DNA from: a virus
Virus record (IMG/VR): IMGVR_UViG_3300046009_003930
Coordinates: 1 to 20,602 of that record
Length of the DNA stretch: 20,602 nt
Reading direction: 5' to 3' (one strand)
This document shows positions 1-13,105 of the stretch, one piece after another; position 1 is the stretch's first letter; each line of letters starts with the position of its first letter. Made by a program: the position numbers and the translations under genes. Below the pieces are notes generated by a model that worked only from the letters and a program-made list of their open reading frames with translations, was not told the DNA's origin and searched no databases.

Positions 1-2327
1 AGGGCTTGTAAATCTCGTATTAATTGTGCTAATTCTGTTTTTATTTCTTGCACCGTTTTATCTGGATTTGCTGCTAGATAATTTGTTGCATTTTGTAATA
101 CAACTGCTCCTAATCTCAAAAATATATTTTCAAATGGTTCTAGATTTTGTTTTTTAAATTGTTTGAAATCTTTTTTATCAAATGCATCAACCCAAGCTAC
201 AAATTCTGGATTGGTTATTTGTTTTTTAAGTATGGATATATTTGTTGATTTATCGTCAAATGCCCAACGATATGTTAACGTATTAATTAGTTCATCGGAA
301 ATATCATAACCCAATTGTTGTGCTTTTGTTTTAATAACGTCTCGCCACCATGCTTTATGATATTCACTAATTAAATCGGTATCCTTGAGGTTGAATTTTT
401 GTTCCAATTGGTTAATCTCATCGAAGAATGCCGCTTGTTGATCTTCAAAATTATAAACGCGACCTATTTTAATACGTTGTGGTGGAATAAATGAAAATGT
501 TTTTTGCATGTGTACATTTGCATCTTGAATAACCTTTTGCATCAATGCTCCGCCTGTTAAATCAGTTTCAACAATTGTTCCGCGTTCGTCATATTCAACT
601 AAATTATGGAATTGTAAATGTGCTTTATCATATGCAATTACATTTTTTGTTGCCGGATAAATAATTTCCATGTTAGCAAATACTCGTCCGTTTTTAAATA
701 TTGTATTTAATTGTTCCGGGGAAATCATTCTGAACGCTTCAGTTAAATCTTCGGCACATGCTCGATATGCTTCTACAACTTGTTTATATCCTTCAGAAGC
801 TTCAGCTCCATTCTTTGCAATGCTTTCTTGATATTTTCTTTCAAAATCAGCTATAATTTGACTTGTTGTCATTGGATTAATTACAGTGCCTTTATTTCTA
901 GCAAAACCAATTTCTCCGTTTTTCCAAGTAACTTGAATGTTTTGACCATCTGTTTTCTCGGTAACTGCTTGTTCGATATCTAATCGTCCAGATAATGCGC
1001 GGGATACAATTTCTTTCATATCATTAAATGATAATCCATGATCATCCCATGGGTGTGCCATATGTCCTGCTGCACCGCCTTCAGTAATTAAACGTCCTTC
1101 TGAAATTACATGTTCGCGCATTACTGATTCGATTTTATATACAATGTCATCTGGATTATTTTTTTGCCATGGCTTACGCTGTTTTTTAATTGTTCTAGGA
1201 ATTAATTCAATCATTTTTTTGTTTGGATTCCATTGCAACATGAATGGCATATGAATCGGAACATCAAATTGATAATCAGAACCAACACCAGTAGGTCGTT
1301 CTAATCGTAATTGTCTAGCAATTTTATCTCCATATTCCGTTGCTAAATCTTCAAAGAAATCTTTCAACTCATCCATATAAATAGGAGCTTCATTTCTAGG
1401 ATCATTCAGACGGTCAATAAAATGTGTAAACTTGCCTTGAAAATCTACATCAATTCCGTACTCAGAAAAGAACCCGTCAACTGCGTGTTCTATAGATGCC
1501 AATTCTTCGCGTGTTATGTAATTTTCAGTTAAAATATTTTCTATTAATTTAGCGCCAGCAACTGTTTTTGCAAATTTATCAAAATCATATACAAAAGATT
1601 CACCTCGATTTGTTTCTAAAAATGAACGTAAATGTTTTATTTTTTCGTTGTGTTTTGCTTTTTCTTTTGGATTCATTATTGCTTCAAGAACGTCGTTAAC
1701 TTCTGGAGTTAATGTCGTTTCCCACCATGATGAACTAAATACTGATTCTTGTACGCCTCGTAATGTTTGCCAAATGCGTTTAACTACATCATCAGTTTGC
1801 ATTGGATATGATGCACGAAATGTTTCATAATCGTCATTTGCTAATGCAGCACGAATTGTTGATGCAGATATTGGTTCGCCGTTTGAGTATAACAATGGAT
1901 CAATATCAACGTTTAATTCTGTAGCATCAACACCTTGTGGAATCGTTCGTCCTTTTTTGTCTCCGACTGTTTTGTATTTGTCTACATTAGGAACGAAATC
2001 TTTTGTTCGTACGTAATCATCGCCTTTAGTCGATGCTGCCATTGCAAATCTGCCGGTTGCGTCTGGTGGTAACGCAAATAAGTATTCATATGCAGCCATG
2101 ATCGGCGAATTGAATTCAGTTGGTTGAATTGTAATTTTAGGATTACGATTTAGTAATTTGAATATTTCAATGGTTTTTTCGCGTGTAATTCCGTCTCGTT
2201 CTTTTGGTCCAATTAATAATATTACGCGTTCTGTTTCTGGAGATTCAGCATATCGTTCTGCTAATGCTAAATGTGCCCCGGTTAATGGTTTAAATCCGCC
2301 AGGAAATAATGTTGTTATTTTATTCAT
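1..2327 (-). CDS. NMN-adenylyltransferase-like / KxDG ligase-like fusion protein (3'-truncated by window edge)
   Basis: An open frame of at least 775 codons starts at ATG 2325-2327 and runs off the left edge without a stop, so the C-terminus is missing. Residues 1 to about 190 look like a HIGH-type nucleotidyltransferase of the NMNAT/CoaD superfamily: FPGGFKPLTGAH (H19; TGAH replaces the usual HxGH) and ISASTIR at 153-159, the ISxTxIR motif that contacts ATP phosphates. After a helical linker, a GGAAGHMAHPWD segment (417-428) leads into a covalent nucleotidyltransferase-like domain: EKTDGQN with candidate adenylated Lys458 (motif I, KxDG), R477 in ARNKG 19 residues later, and ANMEII with Glu554 (motif III-like). 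These spacings suit RNA ligases. Motifs IV and V are not visible and may lie beyond the edge. The start is 25 nt after the tail-fibre stop, behind a promoter-like motif, with only a weak GGAAA as possible ribosome site. The domain calls are motif-based and the combined function is inferred; NAD/ATP-dependent RNA repair is one possibility. Confidence 0.8.
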   Translation of the reverse strand, partial: MNKITTLFPGGFKPLTGAHLALAERYAESPETERVILLIGPKERDGITREKTIEIFKLLNRNPKITIQPTEFNSPIMAAYEYLFALPPDATGRFAMAASTKGDDYVRTKDFVPNVDKYKTVGDKKGRTIPQGVDATELNVDIDPLLYSNGEPISASTIRAALANDDYETFRASYPMQTDDVVKRIWQTLRGVQESVFSSSWWETTLTPEVNDVLEAIMNPKEKAKHNEKIKHLRSFLETNRGESFVYDFDKFAKTVAGAKLIENILTENYITREELASIEHAVDGFFSEYGIDVDFQGKFTHFIDRLNDPRNEAPIYMDELKDFFEDLATEYGDKIARQLRLERPTGVGSDYQFDVPIHMPFMLQWNPNKKMIELIPRTIKKQRKPWQKNNPDDIVYKIESVMREHVISEGRLITEGGAAGHMAHPWDDHGLSFNDMKEIVSRALSGRLDIEQAVTEKTDGQNIQVTWKNGEIGFARNKGTVINPMTTSQIIADFERKYQESIAKNGAEASEGYKQVVEAYRACAEDLTEAFRMISPEQLNTIFKNGRVFANMEIIYPATKNVIAYDKAHLQFHNLVEYDERGTIVETDLTGGALMQKVIQDANVHMQKTFSFIPPQRIKIGRVYNFEDQQAAFFDEINQLEQKFNLKDTDLISEYHKAWWRDVIKTKAQQLGYDISDELINTLTYRWAFDDKSTNISILKKQITNPEFVAWVDAFDKKDFKQFKKQNLEPFENIFLRLGAVVLQNATNYLAANPDKTVQEIKTELAQLIRDLQA

Positions 2328-5069: not shown

Positions 5070-5079
5070 ATATAAATAT
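5070..5079 (-). promoter_or_regulatory. Promoter-like ATATTTATAT motif upstream of the tail-fibre gene
   Basis: The motif overlaps the last base of the HNH stop codon and ends 17 nt before the fibre start at 5052. The coding strand reads GATATTTATATAAAAGATATC. The core is identical to the other intergenic copies. Promoter role inferred. Confidence 0.55.
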
Positions 5080-5681
5080 CATTTGAGCGAGTTCTTATAT
5101 CGTTTAACTCCTTCACTAATCTTAAGTTTCGTTTCATCAGAAATAATTCGTCCTTTTTTTGAATCGGACATTTTTTGTCTAGTTTCAATCGAATGTTGTT
5201 TTCCTATCATCCATGGAGTTGATCTAGATACTCCTTTTGTAGATTGCAGACGTTTTTTATATTTTTCAATTGTTTCTGGAGAATGTTGTATTCCACGAAG
5301 AGATGTGGTACGTTTTTCAATTGTCTCTTGAGAATGTTTTTTTCCTTTATTAGATAATCCTAATTCACGTGCACGTTCTTGTTGAATTTGTTTACGCATT
5401 TCATATTCATATGAACTAATATTATAGTTCCGGATATGGTGTTTATTTTGTAAATTCATCATCCTCCATAATGCGTAATGTAATTTATTATTACCCGGAT
5501 TAATTTCACATAATAATTTATGTATGATAAAATGTTCTCTTGCGGTTAAGTCAACTAAGTTATCTTTAGTATTATTGCCACCTAAACAACGAGGTACAAT
5601 ATGATGTCGTTCTTTATATCCAGTTAACACTCTATGTTTTGCTCGTTCGATAATCAAATCATGTATTTTTTTGTAATCCAT
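5079..5681 (-). CDS. HNH homing endonuclease with NUMOD3-type repeats, 200 aa
   Basis: The N-terminal half carries an HNH nuclease core: RHHIVPRCLGG (H26, H27), DNLVDLTAREHFIIH (N41, H50, H54), matching the ERHHIxPR...NLVxLTxREHFxxH pattern common in phage mobile HNH enzymes. The C-terminal half has four NUMOD3-like DNA-binding repeats starting near residues 113, 130, 160 and 177 (for example GKKHSQETIEKR, GIQHSPETIEKY, GKQHSIETRQKM, GRIISDETKLKI). It is free-standing, between the recombination gene (ending 5787) and the fibre gene (starting 5052), and not inside an intron that I can see. The leader of about 105 nt carries a hairpin, and a promoter-like motif flanks the gene on each side, as if inserted at an intergenic promoter. 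It would cut DNA of related phages lacking it and so spread; the target site cannot be read from this window. An AAGG lies about 15 nt before the ATG, too far for a typical ribosome site. Confidence 0.9.
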   Translation of the reverse strand: MDYKKIHDLIIERAKHRVLTGYKERHHIVPRCLGGNNTKDNLVDLTAREHFIIHKLLCEINPGNNKLHYALWRMMNLQNKHHIRNYNISSYEYEMRKQIQQERARELGLSNKGKKHSQETIEKRTTSLRGIQHSPETIEKYKKRLQSTKGVSRSTPWMIGKQHSIETRQKMSDSKKGRIISDETKLKISEGVKRYKNSLK

Positions 5682-5786: not shown

Positions 5787-8700
5787 TTAAATGTGATAAA
5801 CATAACTATAGTTATTAATTTTATTTACTTCAATTAATGAATCTACCATATCTCGCATCGAATCGACGTGAGATATAATAATTGAAAAATCAAATTTGGT
5901 ACGAACATAATCAAATAAATTTACTAAAGAAGATATATGAGTTGAATCTAAAGTGCCAAATCCTTCGTCGATTGCAATGAAATTAGGTCGAGGTAATGCT
6001 GATACATTAATCAATGCAATGCGAATTGCCAAACTAGAAATAAAACGTTCCATACCAGATGTCAATTCTAATGGCCAATAATTATCTTCATCATAAATTA
6101 TGTATCCGTTAATATTTTTGCCGTCAGTATTCATTACCATGTTAAAATCAACAATTTGATTAAGTACATTGTTTATTTCTGCTTCAATTTTTGGCAATGC
6201 TTTTGTAACTAACTCATATGGTATTCCGTCGCGTTTAACTGATTCTAAATAATATTCATATGCTTTATATTCCGTTTCCAATTGTTGATAACGTTCTAAT
6301 TGTTGCATAGCAGTTTGTTTTTTAGTTTTTGCTACTTCAATTGCACCATACATGTTTTTAATTTGAGTTTGTATAGTTTTGATTTGGTTTGAAATATCTG
6401 TAATATCATGTTTACATGTATCAATCAATTGATTAACATTTGAATTATGTTTTATTGCCGTTTCATTTTTTCGGAATGATTCTTGACGTTCGATTACCAT
6501 TTCCAATTCAGACTCACGTGTTTGTAAATCACTTTCTAAAATTTGAAGTTGCAATTCATTGCGTTCTGCCGTAATTTTTTCAGTTGCAATTGTATTACGC
6601 AACGAATTTAATTGTTCGGTTTTCCGGAAAACTGGTTCTAGTATTGCAATTTCAGAATTTAAAGTTACAATTTGTTCTTGGATACGTTTTAATATATCTC
6701 TATCCGATTCAATTGTGTTCTGTGCTTCAATTGCATTTTGTACGAAAACGTTAGATGTACAGTATTTACACTCCGGATCATACTCATGGTCGGTAAGATG
6801 ATTAATTTTTTCTTGTTTTGCATTTACTCGTTCTTGTTGTTGACGTAGTTTTTGTAATTGTGTATTAACTGAAAATGTTTTTGCATGATATAATTTAGTT
6901 TTAGAATCAATATCCGTAATATCATATTCTGACAATTCTGTTTCGTGTGTATCGATATTTGCAACTAGAATTTCTAAATCAGATTCCGCAGTTTCAATAT
7001 CTTGTTGAATTGATTCAATTAATTGAACCAAGCCTTGTTCTTGTTTTTTAAGTTGTTCGTTATCCGGGCCATTGTATGAAGTTGGCATTTTAGTTTCAAT
7101 TAATGAAACAATGCGTTCTTGCAATGCATTTCTTTGTTCTTGCAATGCATCTTCTTGTATTTCTAATTCATTGATATTTTCTTGATTATCAGAAATAATT
7201 GTGTCCGCAGTTATGATTATTTCAGCAAAATCTGTTTTTTTGTAATCTTTTAAACGGCCCGCAGTTTCTTTAATTTCATCTGAAGCCAATTGGTATAATT
7301 GTTCAAACACCGTAATATCTAAAAATTGAGAAAGTAAATCTTTGCGTTCTTTTTGTGATTTTTCAATAAAATTGTTGTTATCAGCTTGCAATGAAAATGC
7401 AGTTAAAATAAAGTCATCATATGTACCTAAATACCTACGTATGTTTTTGTTTGTTTCACTACGTTCTTCCCCGTTTAAATTATCAGCATCTGTATAAAAA
7501 TCTACATCGACTTTTACATGAGATTCTTTCTTTTTATTTTGCGTTCCACGACGTTCAATCGTATAAACAATTCCATTCATTTCAAAACGAAATAAACCTC
7601 GAAACCAAGTTTTTTTGTTGTTTAAAACTTCGTTTGCTTTGCCGGTTTTACTACATTTATCAAAAATTGTATAAGTTATTGCATCAAGCAAACTAGATTT
7701 ACCAGAAGTGTTTGCGGCAAATAAACCACATACGTTGGATAAATTTTCAAAGTTCAATACATTGCCTTCTCCATATGAAAACATGTTATCGAATTCAAAT
7801 GATATCGGATGCCATGTAGTATGACGAATAGACTCAACTGCAGGTAATTTAGAATTTATTGTGCGATTGATATGTCGTATTGCATCAATCTCTTCTGCAG
7901 TCGCTTGTGGATAATTTGTATCAATATAATCTGTTAATAAAATATTTTGATATTCAACATCACGTACATTTCCAATTGCTAAGCCAGATGAAGCTGCGGC
8001 AGTAGCATGTTCAATTGTACGTTGTATTGTAATATCTTGTACATCATATTTTTTGCGAATTGTAGCAATTAGCTTTTTCATATCCGCCGCAGTGGTACCA
8101 TTGAATTTAATTCGTATACGAGGTTTAACTGGCATACGGTGTGGATGTGATACAATTTTATCACTTTGCGTTTCCAATGTCACATAACCATAATCATTGT
8201 GAATTTGTGCAAATTCAGCTGAACGTGTTTCTAAATCCCATACCAATATACCATGGTCTAATGCTTCGCCATGATTTTGTTGTATCAAACTACCTGGATA
8301 TGCAATTGTACGTTCATCATCTAAAAATTGCGCTGGCTTATGAATATCTCCTAACAATGTAATGTCATGGCCCGCAAATAATGCTGTAGTAACATGTTCA
8401 TTTGATATTTGATATCCAATATCAGTTTTAGCAGTGTTTACCGCACCATGATGCAATGCAATTTTATAATCAGCATCGAAATCTTTTGCCATTACGTAAT
8501 CGACTGGCGATTTATCAACTGCCATGTGATTCCATGTAACGCCTCCTAATTCAAACAAACCGTTCTCTTTAATAAAATGAATGTTTGGATTTCTTATAAC
8601 ATCAAGTACTGGACTAACAGCATCAACTCGATGCATATTGTTCAAGTTCATATCGTGATTACCTAAAATAACAATTGTAGGTATCGTAAATCCATTGAAG

Positions 8701-8933
8701 AAGTCAACCAGCATTTGTACTAGTTCCGGAGACATATCCAATTTGCTGTGAACAATATCTCCGGTTACAACTGCTATACTGTTTTTAGTACAATGTGTTT
8801 CTATGTAATCAAACATGTTTGCAAATACTTGTCGATATTCTCCATGACGTTTCAATGTTCTAATATGTATATCAGAAACATGAAATATTTTATCGATTTT
8901 ATCAATTCCACAATCGATGTGTGTTATGCCCAT
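5787..8933 (-). CDS. Fused Mre11/SbcD-Rad50/SbcC recombination protein (T4 gp47-gp46 equivalent), 1048 aa
   Basis: The N-terminal third is a calcineurin-type nuclease: SDIH (D21, H23), GDIVHSK (D59), GNHD (N92-H93-D94), ALHHGA and LLGDIHKP (D196, H198; most SbcD/Mre11 have GHIH). About residue 370 onward is a Rad50/SbcC ATPase: Walker A AANTSGKSS with K412, a long Glu/Gln/Lys-rich coiled coil (about 560-900) with a zinc-hook CKYC at 722-725, a signature-like LTSGMERF (957-964), Walker B IAIDEGFG (D989, E990) and an IIISH switch. In T4 the two subunits are separate proteins that resect DNA ends for recombination-dependent replication and degrade host DNA; here they form one chain with no stop or frameshift between. 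The start overlaps the primase stop by 10 nt, implying translational coupling. All catalytic parts seem present, with an Ala for the first Walker A Gly. Confidence 0.93.
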   Translation of the reverse strand: MGITHIDCGIDKIDKIFHVSDIHIRTLKRHGEYRQVFANMFDYIETHCTKNSIAVVTGDIVHSKLDMSPELVQMLVDFFNGFTIPTIVILGNHDMNLNNMHRVDAVSPVLDVIRNPNIHFIKENGLFELGGVTWNHMAVDKSPVDYVMAKDFDADYKIALHHGAVNTAKTDIGYQISNEHVTTALFAGHDITLLGDIHKPAQFLDDERTIAYPGSLIQQNHGEALDHGILVWDLETRSAEFAQIHNDYGYVTLETQSDKIVSHPHRMPVKPRIRIKFNGTTAADMKKLIATIRKKYDVQDITIQRTIEHATAAASSGLAIGNVRDVEYQNILLTDYIDTNYPQATAEEIDAIRHINRTINSKLPAVESIRHTTWHPISFEFDNMFSYGEGNVLNFENLSNVCGLFAANTSGKSSLLDAITYTIFDKCSKTGKANEVLNNKKTWFRGLFRFEMNGIVYTIERRGTQNKKKESHVKVDVDFYTDADNLNGEERSETNKNIRRYLGTYDDFILTAFSLQADNNNFIEKSQKERKDLLSQFLDITVFEQLYQLASDEIKETAGRLKDYKKTDFAEIIITADTIISDNQENINELEIQEDALQEQRNALQERIVSLIETKMPTSYNGPDNEQLKKQEQGLVQLIESIQQDIETAESDLEILVANIDTHETELSEYDITDIDSKTKLYHAKTFSVNTQLQKLRQQQERVNAKQEKINHLTDHEYDPECKYCTSNVFVQNAIEAQNTIESDRDILKRIQEQIVTLNSEIAILEPVFRKTEQLNSLRNTIATEKITAERNELQLQILESDLQTRESELEMVIERQESFRKNETAIKHNSNVNQLIDTCKHDITDISNQIKTIQTQIKNMYGAIEVAKTKKQTAMQQLERYQQLETEYKAYEYYLESVKRDGIPYELVTKALPKIEAEINNVLNQIVDFNMVMNTDGKNINGYIIYDEDNYWPLELTSGMERFISSLAIRIALINVSALPRPNFIAIDEGFGTLDSTHISSLVNLFDYVRTKFDFSIIISHVDSMRDMVDSLIEVNKINNYSYVYHI
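7115..7150 (-). repeat. Short direct repeat encoding duplicated coiled-coil heptads
   Basis: GTTCTTGCAATGCAT occurs at 7115-7129 and again at 7136-7150, 21 bp apart, exactly seven codons. It encodes DALQEQRNALQER, so it looks like a heptad duplication within the Rad50-type coiled coil. Confidence 0.7.
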
Positions 8934-9868
8934 ATTAATCCCATTCTCAATTCCATTAGTCGTTCAAATGTCAATACTTCAACATCCGCTAATATATTTG
9001 TAATTTTTTTAAATCCTAATTCTGATGCATCTTCATTTTCTAGTTCAACGAAATATACATTTAATCCTTCACCCATGAAACGTTCTGCAATTTGAATTGC
9101 ATTTTTTAATGCATCCGCATCTAGGCAAATGTATATATTTTTAACATGTTCTTGAATAATTTTCTTTTGCAATGCCGGTTGTATTATTTTTCCAAACAAT
9201 GGAATAGCATTGCGTTTAATTGCAATTGCATCAAATGAACCTTCGCATAAAATAATTGGTTCAGACCAATTTACAAACATTTCAAAACCAATAATATCTT
9301 TAGAAATTTTTGGATTTTTATGTTTAAATTTATCGCTTTTATAATATGCTCGGCTAACAAAATAATTTAATTGGCCATCACAATCATAACTAGGTATAAT
9401 TATTTTTCCGGAATACTCGCCTGTTTCGCAATATCCAATTCTGTATTTAATAATATCAAATATCGTAATGTTACGAGTTGTTAAATAATGAATTGCATTT
9501 TTATAATCCGGTGTAGATTTTTTAATCCATAATGGACGATAATCTTGTGGCAATTGAATTGTTTGATTTATTTTTGTTTCTTTAGTATCGACACGATATC
9601 GTGCTGATTCAATTATACGATTTAATTGTTCGAAACGTTCTTTAGGTAAATTTAATTGTTTGAATAACGAAGATATACTTCGGCCTTTTTTGTCTGATAT
9701 CCAACAATGCCAAGCATTTTCGCCGGAACTTGTTGTATTGATATCAATTTCTAATTTTGGCTTGTAATGAGATTGAAATGGAGAAAAAAACGCAATATTA
9801 TTTCCTGAGGTTGATTTACCTTTGCCTAATATTGATTCTAGTAATTGAAGTAATTTAAGATTCTTCAT
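8924..9868 (-). CDS. DNA primase, T4 gp61/DnaG-like with Toprim domain, 314 aa
   Basis: The Toprim core is clear: IILCEGSFDAIAIKR (E209, D213) and YICLDADA (D250, D252), preceded by a DnaG-type core segment GKIIIPSYDCDGQLNYFVSR. The N-terminus keeps the outline of a primase zinc domain (SPFQSHYKPKLEIDI, then WHCWISDKKGRSISSLFK) but the usual CPFH and CxxC ligands are replaced, so it probably does not bind zinc in the standard way. At 314 aa it is close to T4 gp61 and much shorter than bacterial DnaG, and has no helicase fusion. It would make RNA primers at the fork with a separate helicase not in the window. Upstream is the 203-nt AT-rich gap; its 3' end overlaps the SbcD-SbcC start by 10 nt, pairing replication and recombination genes. 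No Shine-Dalgarno precedes the ATG. The start was chosen because stop-rich AT sequence lies directly upstream. Confidence 0.9.
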   Translation of the reverse strand: MKNLKLLQLLESILGKGKSTSGNNIAFFSPFQSHYKPKLEIDINTTSSGENAWHCWISDKKGRSISSLFKQLNLPKERFEQLNRIIESARYRVDTKETKINQTIQLPQDYRPLWIKKSTPDYKNAIHYLTTRNITIFDIIKYRIGYCETGEYSGKIIIPSYDCDGQLNYFVSRAYYKSDKFKHKNPKISKDIIGFEMFVNWSEPIILCEGSFDAIAIKRNAIPLFGKIIQPALQKKIIQEHVKNIYICLDADALKNAIQIAERFMGEGLNVYFVELENEDASELGFKKITNILADVEVLTFERLMELRMGLIWA

Positions 9869-10071: not shown

Positions 10072-10551
10072 TCAAAAGAATTTTTTAATAACGTTCGGAG
10101 ATTCTCCAGTTTTAACACATTCTGTTAACCATTCTGCAGGAATATCTCGTTTTGCTACATGTTTAATACCTAGTTTATAAGCATAAGCTTCATATGTAGT
10201 ATTACTGCCTTTTGATATTTTTTGTGTAGGAGTTTGAAATACTAATCGAATATCGACGCCAGGATTTGATTGTAAAACATGTTTCATTTTTAAACGATCG
10301 GCACTAGTCCATCGTCCTTTTGTTTCGATATACATGAAATTACCGTCTTTTTTAGTAAAAACAAAGTCCGGTGTATATTTTGCTTTACGTTCCGGTACTA
10401 TATAATTTATAATTTCTGTTTCATAATTCAAATCGTATTCAGTACTTTTTATCCATTCAGCAACTGTATGTTCTAATCCTGATTTATAACCGTATTTTAA
10501 TGCTGCAGCTCGTTTTGCGTTGCCGGCACTGTGAAAATGATTTTTTTTCAT
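10072..10551 (-). CDS. T7-type endonuclease I (Holliday-junction resolvase), 159 aa
   Basis: It aligns closely with T7 gp3 by eye: SGLE (E27), KYTPDF (D62), YIETKGRW (E76, K78), SADRLKM, PGVDIRLVF, TQKISKGSNTTYEAYAYKLGIKHV and IPAEWLTE. E27, D62, E76 and K78 correspond to the T7 active-site residues E20, D55, E65 and K67, so the PD-(D/E)XK nuclease should be active. In T7 it is a domain-swapped homodimer that resolves four-way junctions and debranches DNA before packaging. T4-like phages normally use endonuclease VII (gp49) for this job, so this may replace it. The ATG overlaps the stop of the upstream 661-aa gene as ATGA, implying coupled translation with a presumed virion protein. No obvious Shine-Dalgarno precedes it, which suits coupling. 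Confidence 0.95.
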   Translation of the reverse strand: MKKNHFHSAGNAKRAAALKYGYKSGLEHTVAEWIKSTEYDLNYETEIINYIVPERKAKYTPDFVFTKKDGNFMYIETKGRWTSADRLKMKHVLQSNPGVDIRLVFQTPTQKISKGSNTTYEAYAYKLGIKHVAKRDIPAEWLTECVKTGESPNVIKKFF

Positions 10552-12533
10552 GAGAGTTGAAACTGTTCTTTTGGTGTTCCAAATAATTTAGTGTTATACA
10601 TATTTTCAAATTTCTTTAAAATATCAGAATCTGTATATCGTAAACGCAATGGTATACTTTTATCGTTTTCATCGTATTGATAATCGTTAAATATGTTATT
10701 ATTTAATCGGTTTCGAAGTATTTGAGTTGTGGAGTGATCAAAATCTAACCAATCACCGCCATCTCCTGTAAATATATCATCTAAACGTTTTATAACAGAT
10801 GGAGTGTTTGTAGCTTGCGCACGTAAATATTCAACTGTTGTAGCAGATCTGCCGTTTCTAGAAATAACATAATTAACTATTCGTAAACTGTTTGGTTTAG
10901 TTATTCGTCCAAAATATTTAGAATTTGCAAATCGCATAATCATATCACAATATGCAGTTTTTAATACAGCATCATTTCCGCCATTTCCAATTAAACGTTT
11001 TGTAATTAATTTGTATATGTATTCTTCTGGCCAATCTCCGTTTTCTAAAGTATGTTTTGTAATTGCTTCAAAGAAAAATATTCCATTAACTATTAATGAT
11101 TCTATATATTTACGTTTTGCTTTTTGTTTTTTTGCAGCAGCTTCTGCATCTTGTGTTTGTTTTGTTTTATCAGTTGTAGGTATTTTATCAGTTGTAGGTG
11201 TAGTAGTTTTCTTTTTTGTGTCACTAGGTGGTGTTTGTTGTGTGTTTATTTTACGTACTGAATTTTCAGCGCGATCAGTGTCAAAATCATCAAATTGTTC
11301 GCGTATAGATTTATACTTACTAAATCTATCTTCTTTTAAAAGTTCTTTATTATATAAAAATTCTACAAACTCCGGTTCAATGACATTACCATCCATATTT
11401 TTAAAATAGTTTCCAGCTGAGTCTTTAAGTCCTCCTTTTAAAAATGCAATTAAAGATCGAGTTAAATCACTGTAATTTCCTTTCATGTTTCGTACATTAG
11501 TAAAATTTTTAACATAAGGGTTGTCTTTTTGTGGGGATATCGATAGTGTTGCCTTAAGCTTATCTTGCAATTTTTTTAATTCCGCATTATTTCGCATTCC
11601 GTACGTAAACCCAGTTGCAGGCGTATTTATCGTTCTTGTATTTTGCGTAATCACTGGCTTATTTGCAATCAATTCACGTGTACATATATTCGCAAATTGT
11701 TTAATTTCATCCGGATGTTTAAACTCATATTTAGAATTACGTAATCGATATGCAGTTCGTGCAGTTAATTCATCGTAATTACCAGTTACATCTATGTTAT
11801 TTTCAATTTGAAATTGTTGAATTGCTCCTTTTAAATCACATCCAAATACGTTATCACCAGGTACGTCATAACCTAACTCTTTTAAACCAAAATATGCATA
11901 TAAATTTCGTACTACCGAATTCGTTTGACCAAATGTTACTTGTGTTAATGGAGCTGCTGTTAACGTAATTGGTTCTGTATCAATTGACTTATTTTTTGTC
12001 CATTCAACAAAATTAACTTTTTCAATATCAAATACCATTGCACCTGCACCACCGCGTAATGTATCTACATATCCAGACATTTTGTTTGTTATAGTTTTTG
12101 GAAGCAATTTCGTTTGAATATAAACGGCAATTGAATAATATTTTGCAAATAAACGTTGTTCTTTAGGTTTGCGTCTATCATCAGTTTTTAAATCCGTAGT
12201 AATTACCCAAACATAATCTGGCGATGTCATAGGTAAATACGTGCCACGTAATCCGTTAAGTTTTAAAATAACATCGGTTTGAAATTCATTAGGAGTAATT
12301 ACGCGACTTTTTTTACCGGTAGTTGGGTCTTCATCTCGTAACCCGAATCTAGATAACGTTACCCGAAACCCATCAAATGTATTAAAGTTGGCTTTATCTC
12401 GACTTATATTTAATGGTTTACGTATATTGTTTGAAATCATCTGATCATCACCAGGTTGTAATACTTCTTGGCCTAACGTAATGTTTTCTTCCGTTAACAC
12501 GTTTTTAATTATTTGTTCTAATATTCTATTCAT
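10548..12533 (-). CDS. Probable virion-associated protein with peptidoglycan-binding-like domain, 661 aa
   Basis: I do not recognise the whole protein. Residues 206-264 (YFGLKELGYDVPGDNVFG, then LKGAIQQFQIENNIDVTG and ELTARTAYRL) match the three-helix PG_binding_1 pattern, where G/D-x-FG and QxxxGLxxTG-like motifs bind cell-wall peptides. No lytic catalytic domain is evident. About 430-480 is a Thr/Pro/Lys-rich linker with a DNA-level tandem repeat, leading into a charged helix and a conserved-looking C-terminal region with GDGGDWLDFDHS. The N-terminus MNRILEQIIKNVLTEEN resembles a T4 capsid- or core-targeting leader ending in an LxE prohead-protease-like site (residues 13-15). It follows the mini-kinase gene by 26 nt, with a promoter-like motif between, and is coupled to endonuclease I. 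A virion protein acting at the cell wall during entry or assembly is an inference. Confidence 0.75.
   Translation of the reverse strand: MNRILEQIIKNVLTEENITLGQEVLQPGDDQMISNNIRKPLNISRDKANFNTFDGFRVTLSRFGLRDEDPTTGKKSRVITPNEFQTDVILKLNGLRGTYLPMTSPDYVWVITTDLKTDDRRKPKEQRLFAKYYSIAVYIQTKLLPKTITNKMSGYVDTLRGGAGAMVFDIEKVNFVEWTKNKSIDTEPITLTAAPLTQVTFGQTNSVVRNLYAYFGLKELGYDVPGDNVFGCDLKGAIQQFQIENNIDVTGNYDELTARTAYRLRNSKYEFKHPDEIKQFANICTRELIANKPVITQNTRTINTPATGFTYGMRNNAELKKLQDKLKATLSISPQKDNPYVKNFTNVRNMKGNYSDLTRSLIAFLKGGLKDSAGNYFKNMDGNVIEPEFVEFLYNKELLKEDRFSKYKSIREQFDDFDTDRAENSVRKINTQQTPPSDTKKKTTTPTTDKIPTTDKTKQTQDAEAAAKKQKAKRKYIESLIVNGIFFFEAITKHTLENGDWPEEYIYKLITKRLIGNGGNDAVLKTAYCDMIMRFANSKYFGRITKPNSLRIVNYVISRNGRSATTVEYLRAQATNTPSVIKRLDDIFTGDGGDWLDFDHSTTQILRNRLNNNIFNDYQYDENDKSIPLRLRYTDSDILKKFENMYNTKLFGTPKEQFQLS
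11165..11199 (-). repeat. Tandem 17-bp repeat in the Thr/Pro-rich linker of the 661-aa protein
   Basis: TTTTATCAGTTGTAGGT occurs at 11165-11181 and 11183-11199, an 18-bp period. It encodes two TTDK units (PTTDKI, PTTDKT) in a disordered linker, so slippage would change its length in frame. Confidence 0.75.
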
Positions 12534-12559: not shown

Positions 12560-13105
12560 TTACCAATCAATCATGACTAAATTTCCATTCCATAACATAA
12601 CGTTGTTTGAATTGAAATCTAAATCTAAATCCAATTCTTCAATACCGGTTTTTTCTATATCATTTTGCAAAGCGCGCATAAAATTTATCAATTTAACATC
12701 GGTATCACGTGCCCCATCATTATCTAGATAATCAAATATAGAAACTTCGCCGCCTTTTGCACGTGCATATTCTGCAAATCGTTTCATGAATTTATCAATT
12801 TTTATTTTGTATTGGTCAGGCAATGGTTCAGCATTTGCCATAATGTACATGTGTTGTTTATCATCAACATAATATATCGGAATAAATGTTGAATATTCAG
12901 ACCAACGTCCTACTATAATAGACGCAACTTCAAATTCATCTCGTTCTTGTGTAATTTTGAAACAACGATCTTCACCGTTAATTTCATAAACACGTCCATT
13001 ATCACCTGCAGCAATAAATTTAAACTGTTTATTTTTAATTTTATCTAATAAACGAGAAATATCTGAATCAGACAGTTCCATTAATAATTGTTTTAAACGT
13101 ATCAT
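12560..13105 (-). CDS. Protein-kinase-fold mini-protein ending at the DFG-equivalent Asp, 181 aa
   Basis: Kinase-like features are visible in order: a glycine-rich loop AAGDNGRVYEI (residues 32-42), a candidate ATP-anchoring Lys50 in CFKIT, a candidate helix-C Glu57 or Glu59, hinge-like HMYIMANAEPL, and DFNSNNVML (D163, N168), whose D-to-N spacing of five equals the catalytic loop of protein kinases. It ends NLVMIDW, where Asp180 would be the metal-binding DFG Asp, and the stop follows at once. Thus there is no activation segment or later C-lobe, far shorter than normal kinases (about 250 aa). It could be a pseudokinase, a small-molecule phosphotransferase relative or a nucleotide-binding virion protein. 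The N-terminus MIRLKQLLMEL resembles T4 capsid-targeting leaders with an LxE site at 8-10. Its ATG overlaps the stop of the 542-aa structural gene (ATGA), so it is coupled to a tail gene. The fold call is motif-based. Confidence 0.7.
   Translation of the reverse strand: MIRLKQLLMELSDSDISRLLDKIKNKQFKFIAAGDNGRVYEINGEDRCFKITQERDEFEVASIIVGRWSEYSTFIPIYYVDDKQHMYIMANAEPLPDQYKIKIDKFMKRFAEYARAKGGEVSIFDYLDNDGARDTDVKLINFMRALQNDIEKTGIEELDLDLDFNSNNVMLWNGNLVMIDW

Follow-up and report, generated by a model that had tools for sequence, protein, structure and literature searches.

Why would a phage join a nucleotidyltransferase to a ligase-like domain in a single chain, and is that chain real, complete and made to stay in one piece? 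The question is raised by a 20,602-base IMG/VR record, a phage fragment (here the window, meaning the whole stretch of DNA analysed), whose main genes all lie on the minus strand. The gene in question is the last of them (3..2327, minus strand), an ATG-started single frame encoding residues 1-775 of 836; it runs off the left edge, and its 3' end lies outside the window. A first-pass annotation, made from the letters alone, had noticed two motif sets in this one frame, namely GGFKPLTGAH (residues 10-19) and ISASTIR (153-159), then EKTDGQN with K458, ARNKG with R477 and NMEII with E554, and we find all of them at these positions. It had also predicted that ligase motifs IV and V lie just beyond the edge. 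A 100%-identical contig (L007) completes the gene (L007:8001-10508) with a stop after 836 amino acids, and its 61 codons past the window edge hold VPSEGVVFTFQGNTYKMTGAFAPVNQLLGVLKYAR; EGVVF (E805-G806), which is motif IV, and YKMTG (K817), which is motif V, are both in this extension. The two outcomes that the annotation had named against itself, an early stop without motifs IV and V and an assembly join between the halves, both came out negative. We rejected an assembly join because the fusion is shared by dozens of independent metagenomes and by an isolate, Microcystis phage Mel-JY01. The domain order is nucleotidyltransferase (residues 1-190), extension (190-268), middle module (269-405), a short linker and ligase (417-836). 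Purifying selection acts on both halves: dN/dS is about 0.10-0.20 in the nucleotidyltransferase, and in the ligase it is 0.09-0.11.

The ligase domain (residues 417-836, with 417-775 in the window at 3..1079, minus strand) carries a full motif set. Motif I, K458-T-D-G (945..956, minus strand), contains the predicted adenylylated lysine and is invariant in 182/182 sequences. A motif Ia-like arginine, R477 in ARNKG (897..899, minus strand), and the motif III glutamate, E554 in NMEIIYP (666..668, minus strand), are invariant in the 52-row alignment A3, where K458, D460, G461, R477, E554, E805, G806 and K817 occur without exception. Since motifs I, IV and V (KxDG, EG[ILV]VF and [YFL]K[MLFI]TG) are present in all 182 distinct ligase cores, the motif set is not due to chance. 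The AlphaFold model of the domain has a pLDDT of 89.5 and a pTM of 0.86 (model residues 1-16 are below pLDDT 50), and its first 28 Foldseek matches in the PDB are all polynucleotide ligases, headed by T4 RNA ligase 1 (E = 1.4e-3), then an archaeal RNA ligase and, third, a fungal tRNA ligase. These PDB E-values are weak because of a large insertion. Two helical insertions set motif III 96 residues apart from motif I and motif IV 251 residues apart from motif III; the second is located by model secondary structure and sequence at about residues 627-800 (3..449 within the window, minus strand). In a viral structure library, the nearest matches are relatives named 'Cytidyltransferase-like' (E down to 1.6e-38), followed by phage RNA ligases. 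On the basis of the model, a ligase fold of the C-terminal half is near certain. With the motif I lysine, motifs III, IV and V in order and this fold, the domain has the features of the covalent nucleotidyltransferase (ligase/capping enzyme) superfamily.

Sequence comparison places this domain near T4 RNA ligase 1 (Rnl1) at a considerable distance. In hhalign against a 20-member Rnl1 profile, K458 pairs with the lysine of KEDG and E554 with the glutamate of FEF in T4 Rnl1, and the score of 26.5 is higher than in all 150 column shuffles (maximum 25.9; P = 0.017). Neither Rnl2 nor T4 DNA ligase gave an alignment better than chance. The Pfam models, including that of the Rnl1 family (RNA_lig_T4_1), gave no match to the ligase half of the full protein, and PDB sequence searches with the single protein and a PDB profile search with A1 did not detect it. 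Among PHROGs, which otherwise did not detect this half in the single protein, the sole hint is phrog_562, the T4 RNA ligase 1 family (E = 0.011, motif III region). PF09511 (Rnl1) had no match in the related genomes, but the controls were silent too. We therefore call the ligase half Rnl1-like and do not assign it to the Rnl1 family. Adenylylation of the lysine and an RNA substrate are what we infer.

The N-terminal half (about residues 1-190; 1758..2327, minus strand) is securely placed by its sequence in the HIGH superfamily, as a putative nucleotidyltransferase of the NMNAT/PPAT kind. A profile (A2) compared with PDB sequences matched PPAT (2e-9) and NadD (2h29, profile positions 3-163; 4.5e-6). 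With this match and the ligase model, the superfamilies first proposed for both halves prove right. In the first signature, GGFKPLTGAH (2271..2300, minus strand), TGAH replaces H/TxGH; of 130 members, 77 have TGAH here, 50 a GxHH-like form and 3 the canonical one. The second signature, ISASTIR (1851..1871, minus strand), follows the pattern ISxTxxR, which is kept in 131 of 147 members. Against the NMNAT, NadD and CoaD models, this half scored under every curated cut-off, whatever the substrate class.

The two halves form a constant pair that defines a family. Searching IMG/VR with a profile of the ligase alone yielded at least 591 confirmed relatives and a second search from distant members at least 588, and the ligase is present on at least 588 phage contigs. 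In the loci examined, which were the best 80 of 600 stretches per scan, so that rarer architectures may exist, the nucleotidyltransferase accompanies the ligase in every distinct complete homologue that the ligase alone recovered (52 of 52 and 39 of 39). Protein length in the family ranges from about 560 to 1,909 residues. Exceptions are a stand-alone ligase (L003) in a 462-kb huge phage (LR756500) and two split versions (L066:8001-10317 and L109:5360-7230), in which a change of frame between or within domains leaves each part as an open reading frame of its own. Stand-alone nucleotidyltransferases are found in Lak phages. Two matches in GTDB genomes are contigs of metagenome-assembled genomes, and in one of them (L161) a terminase-like gene comes after the fusion gene, as in phages. 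In seven listed relatives and in Mel-JY01, the fusion gene comes just before those for the large terminase and portal. Full-length relatives are A0A6J5MBE6 and A0A6J5MCV5 of uncultured Caudovirales phages (UniProt) and WWT39297.1 of Mel-JY01. The two UniProt entries are labelled 'Cytidyltransferase-like domain-containing protein', and deposited members are annotated for the nucleotidyltransferase alone, leaving the ligase half unnamed. In the literature searched, the RNA-repair survey of Burroughs and Aravind (2016) aside, we found no paper on the nucleotidyltransferase-ligase pairing, and none on Mel-JY01. A gene that is very common in phages thus seems to be undescribed.

Between and around the two constant domains lie exchangeable modules. 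The middle module of the window protein (residues 269-405; 1113..1523, minus strand) is missing in roughly half of the unbiased set, and a stand-alone homologue is gp31 of Methylophilales phage Melnitz. The model of this module is of low confidence (pLDDT 57) and Foldseek gave noise, which lends no support to the small nuclease fold that we had considered for it. Other members carry different domains: a CCA-adding enzyme in L161 (PolyA_pol, 1.5e-29; phrog_2244, 1.6e-57), a PNK-like HAD phosphatase domain in L121 (phrog_415, 9.5e-12), an AAA_33/zeta P-loop kinase in 7-8 of 30 scanned relatives, and a Nudix domain and a DnaQ-type exonuclease in one each of these 30. A zinc-protease-like domain (L157) and ParB-like segments were also found in relatives. 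BLAST did not support the P-loop kinases as homologues of T4 Pnkp, and we call them only AAA_33/zeta-type. RNA-repair systems, for instance those of jumbo phages (PMC7824862), typically comprise a ligase, a nucleotidyltransferase, a kinase and a phosphatase, and it is mainly because the variable modules match these members that we prefer RNA repair as the function. Repair of RNA was among the options raised in the first-pass annotation, and the high rank of T4 Rnl1 and fungal tRNA ligase among the fold matches, together with the RNA-repair domains of relatives, favours it. The 160-kb relative G004 is among the large relatives without tRNA genes. Another relative (G002) has 22 tRNA genes, its own Rnl2-type ligase and a PNK-type gene, and the fused ligase is therefore no simple stand-in for these enzymes and could have a distinct substrate.

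Linkers vary too. In L062:7989-11285 and L073:7989-11195, an HNH-like insertion, in frame and about 220 residues long, sits exactly in the linker before the ligase, with GG duplicated at the ends. A linker in L286:546-5201, L246:14-3304 and L250:3871-7218 contains a long hydrophobic hairpin rich in Gly and Ala (GLGAAAAVTYAWTKMTFIGDPEYDLDLSAAATAAATGD); once ejected, a protein with this hairpin could be membrane-active. A linker segment of L154:4876-5953, IYHYTDKKGLAGILKSNSIK..YISFTRN, resembles ADP-ribosyltransferases (Tox-ART-HYD1, E = 0.0086, below the cut-off).

The borders of the modules carry a pattern that is known from T4 head maturation, where the protease gp21 cleaves behind L/I-x-E and N-terminal propeptides of 10-19 residues, ending at such a site, bring internal proteins into the head (PMC9026906). 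The first-pass annotation had mentioned neither the exchangeable module nor these sites. One candidate site precedes the middle module (LTE268/NYIT, cut after E268; 1524..1532, minus strand); here P1 is E and P3 is I or L in 52 of 52 sequences, and P2 is of nine kinds. The other, in a predicted disordered stretch, directly precedes the ligase (ITE416/GG, cut after E416; 1080..1088, minus strand), with E at P1 in 169 and L or I at P3 in 180 of 181 sequences and eleven kinds of residue at P2. The background rate of [ILV]xE is 1.6%, and the counts come from related sequences, not from independent events. The EGG at the pre-ligase site could serve the ligase itself.

An N-terminal leader is present in 51 of 126 complete members, and the other 75, the window subfamily among them, start at the nucleotidyltransferase. 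Among leaders of at least 12 residues, 40 of 45 distinct ones match M-x(4-20)-[LIF]xE, as do 24% of other open reading frames (Fisher P = 7e-19, uncorrected for kinship). The stand-alone ligase L003 starts MKFLKSYEEFLNENLILE/GG, like MKTYQEFIAE/ASVV of T4 IPIII. The relative G004 encodes a gp21-type protease (Peptidase_S77, 1.2e-32) and a Gp23 capsid protein (1.3e-74) with a site of its own, LVKE/ASS; in the window, a fragment, the protease gene is out of reach. A gp21-like protease is encoded at L302:3554-4183, and in WWT39297.1 of Mel-JY01 the predicted cuts would follow a leader ending in ..IFSE and the E that precedes GGLGGHM. Sites are thus found in the window protein and its relatives, and a gp21-type protease in one of these relatives. 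The simplest reading of sites and leaders would be a head-packaged polyprotein. Because the window subfamily has no leader, the packaging argument has its main gap in how these proteins would get into the head.

Leaders of this kind were also seen in other genes. Several neighbours of L003 in the huge phage start with a leader like those of T4 internal proteins (MKFILEYEKFLN, MEFVKTYLEFINE and MEYVKLFEEFVND), which suggests a set of head-packaged proteins. In the window, the protein encoded at 10548-12533 (minus strand), which has a peptidoglycan-binding domain, has a leader ending in L/I-x-E (MNRILEQIIKNVLTE/EN), as does that at 12560-13105 (minus strand; MIRLKQLLME/LS), and these two may be head-packaged too.

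Our preferred explanation, to which we give a probability of about one half, is that the gene encodes a late, modular polyprotein that is packaged, cut by a gp21-type protease and used to deliver an Rnl1-like RNA ligase for RNA repair. The polyprotein would be made with the late genes, probably enter the prohead, and be cut by the phage's gp21-type protease at the L/I-x-E sites between modules, and the freed enzymes would be ejected together with the DNA. K458 would then take AMP from ATP and hand it to an RNA 5'-phosphate, after which the 3'-OH closes the break; other modules would perhaps trim or rebuild RNA ends before sealing. RNA cut by host defences, most likely tRNA, would in this way be mended ahead of phage gene expression. 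A wider version, which we put forward more tentatively, is that a widespread group of T4-type phages injects an RNA-repair kit, packed in the head as a polyprotein and cut by the prohead protease, mending breaks in host RNA before expression starts. With the same reserve, the kit may be seen as a mix-and-match set of ligase, nucleotidyltransferase, kinase, phosphatase and CCA-adding enzyme. If the border sites are cut, the halves end as separate proteins, and the fusion would be a delivery device, not a channel.

Alternatively, the protein might be a stable bifunctional RNA-repair enzyme that remains uncut in the cytoplasm, the nucleotidyltransferase preparing or adenylylating 5'-phosphate RNA ends and the ligase sealing them, with the L/I-x-E sites being accidental. 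The chemistry of NMNAT, in which a 5'-phosphate and ATP give a 5'-5' pyrophosphate, is formally that of ligase step 2, and the obligate co-occurrence of the halves, the purifying selection on both and the missing leader of the window subfamily are all compatible with such an enzyme. However, P1 and P3 are kept and P2 is free at two borders in predicted flexible sequence, and large exchangeable inserts between the halves argue against tight coupling. Moreover, the ligase motifs stay constant, unlike the drifting signature of the nucleotidyltransferase, and the domains are also found apart (L003 and L005). We therefore consider an uncut enzyme unlikely.

We think it much less probable still that the N-terminal half makes NAD+ for the ligase half, as adenylate donor or as RNA cap. 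The nearest named families of this half are indeed NMN/nicotinate-nucleotide adenylyltransferases and PPAT, and the Nudix domain of one scanned relative and the P-loop kinases of several recall NadM and NadR. However, phage NadM is always accompanied by NadV (PMC9503650), and neither NadV nor NAPRTase was found in 15 related records, which are fragments; with no equivalog model above its cut-off and no such partner, the half lacks the marks of an NMN adenylyltransferase (NadM/NadR/NadD). Ligases owe their NAD+ specificity to an additional Ia domain (PMC9503650), and by inspection no Ia-like NAD-binding sequence is seen in the stretch of roughly 40 residues that leads from the EGG site to motif I. 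The nearest fold is that of the ATP-dependent Rnl1, and the H/TxGH signature is altered in all but three of 130 members. Thus, the superfamilies, catalytic residues and motifs IV and V of the first-pass annotation stand, and its proposed coupling of NAD supply to ligation finds no support. It is just as improbable that the protein is a morphogenesis factor like T4 gp63, which is annotated as both RNA ligase 1 and tail-fibre attachment catalyst, with ligase activity secondary or lost, since its fixed place among late virion genes beside terminase and portal is outweighed by the retention of all ligase catalytic residues in essentially every member and by exchangeable enzymatic inserts that an assembly role hardly explains.

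The components resemble phage RNA ligases, polyvalent proteins and T4 internal proteins, which are known kinds, and it is their combination and the proposed delivery that are new. T4 RNA ligase 1 (gp63/RnlA, RNA_lig_T4_1) and fungal Trl1 share with the family KxDG, an EGxV motif IV, the motif V lysine, a motif III glutamate in register (FEF/MEII-xP-xxN-V-xY) and the best PDB fold match. Unlike them, the ligase described here has about 12% identity, two helical insertions and no detection by Pfam ligase models, and is fused to a nucleotidyltransferase in 91 of 91 complete homologues in the loci examined. NadM and NadR of phages are likewise HIGH-superfamily nucleotidyltransferases fused to a second enzyme (PMC7824862, PMC9503650), whereas the present family has a ligase as partner, an altered HxGH and, in the 15 related records, no NadV partner gene. 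In the sections consulted of Iyer et al. (2017; PMC5512222), polyvalent phage proteins also hold several unrelated enzyme domains per chain that are shuffled between relatives, are encoded among late genes and are proposed to be injected, and P1 DdrB and DarA are cut before or during packaging. Those sections tie ligases to 2H partners only and the cutting to a built-in metallopeptidase, whereas in this family a nucleotidyltransferase and an Rnl1-like ligase form the core and a prohead protease of the gp21 type would do the cutting. T4 IPI-III and Alt share the L/I-x-E propeptide sites, a similar leader length and, in the case of Alt, a packaged and ejected enzyme; they are single proteins, whereas the present family has sites between domains too, and the window subfamily has no N-terminal leader.

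A ligase domain that is invisible to Pfam has thus stood unnamed in hundreds of phage genomes within a 'cytidyltransferase-like' protein. If active, it would be a new and abundant RNA-ligase family with a large helical insertion, of use in studies of phages and their hosts and perhaps as a reagent. Should the border sites be cut, head maturation of the T4 type would also be a polyprotein-processing route by which enzymes are delivered at time zero of infection.

Other genes of the window, all on the minus strand, deserve mention. A 1,048-residue frame (5787-8933) joins a calcineurin-type phosphoesterase to an SMC/SbcC ATPase, and is a one-chain gp47-gp46 or SbcD-SbcC (Mre11-Rad50-like) fusion; this SbcCD-like fusion also occurs in L012, L063, L027 and L073 at 1,046-1,048 residues. 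A T7-type endonuclease I (10072-10551; Pfam 1.3e-32) and a short Toprim/DNA-primase protein (8924-9868) are encoded beside structural genes. Finally, a free-standing NUMOD3/HNH homing endonuclease (5079-5681) lies between the SbcCD-like gene and a tail gene.
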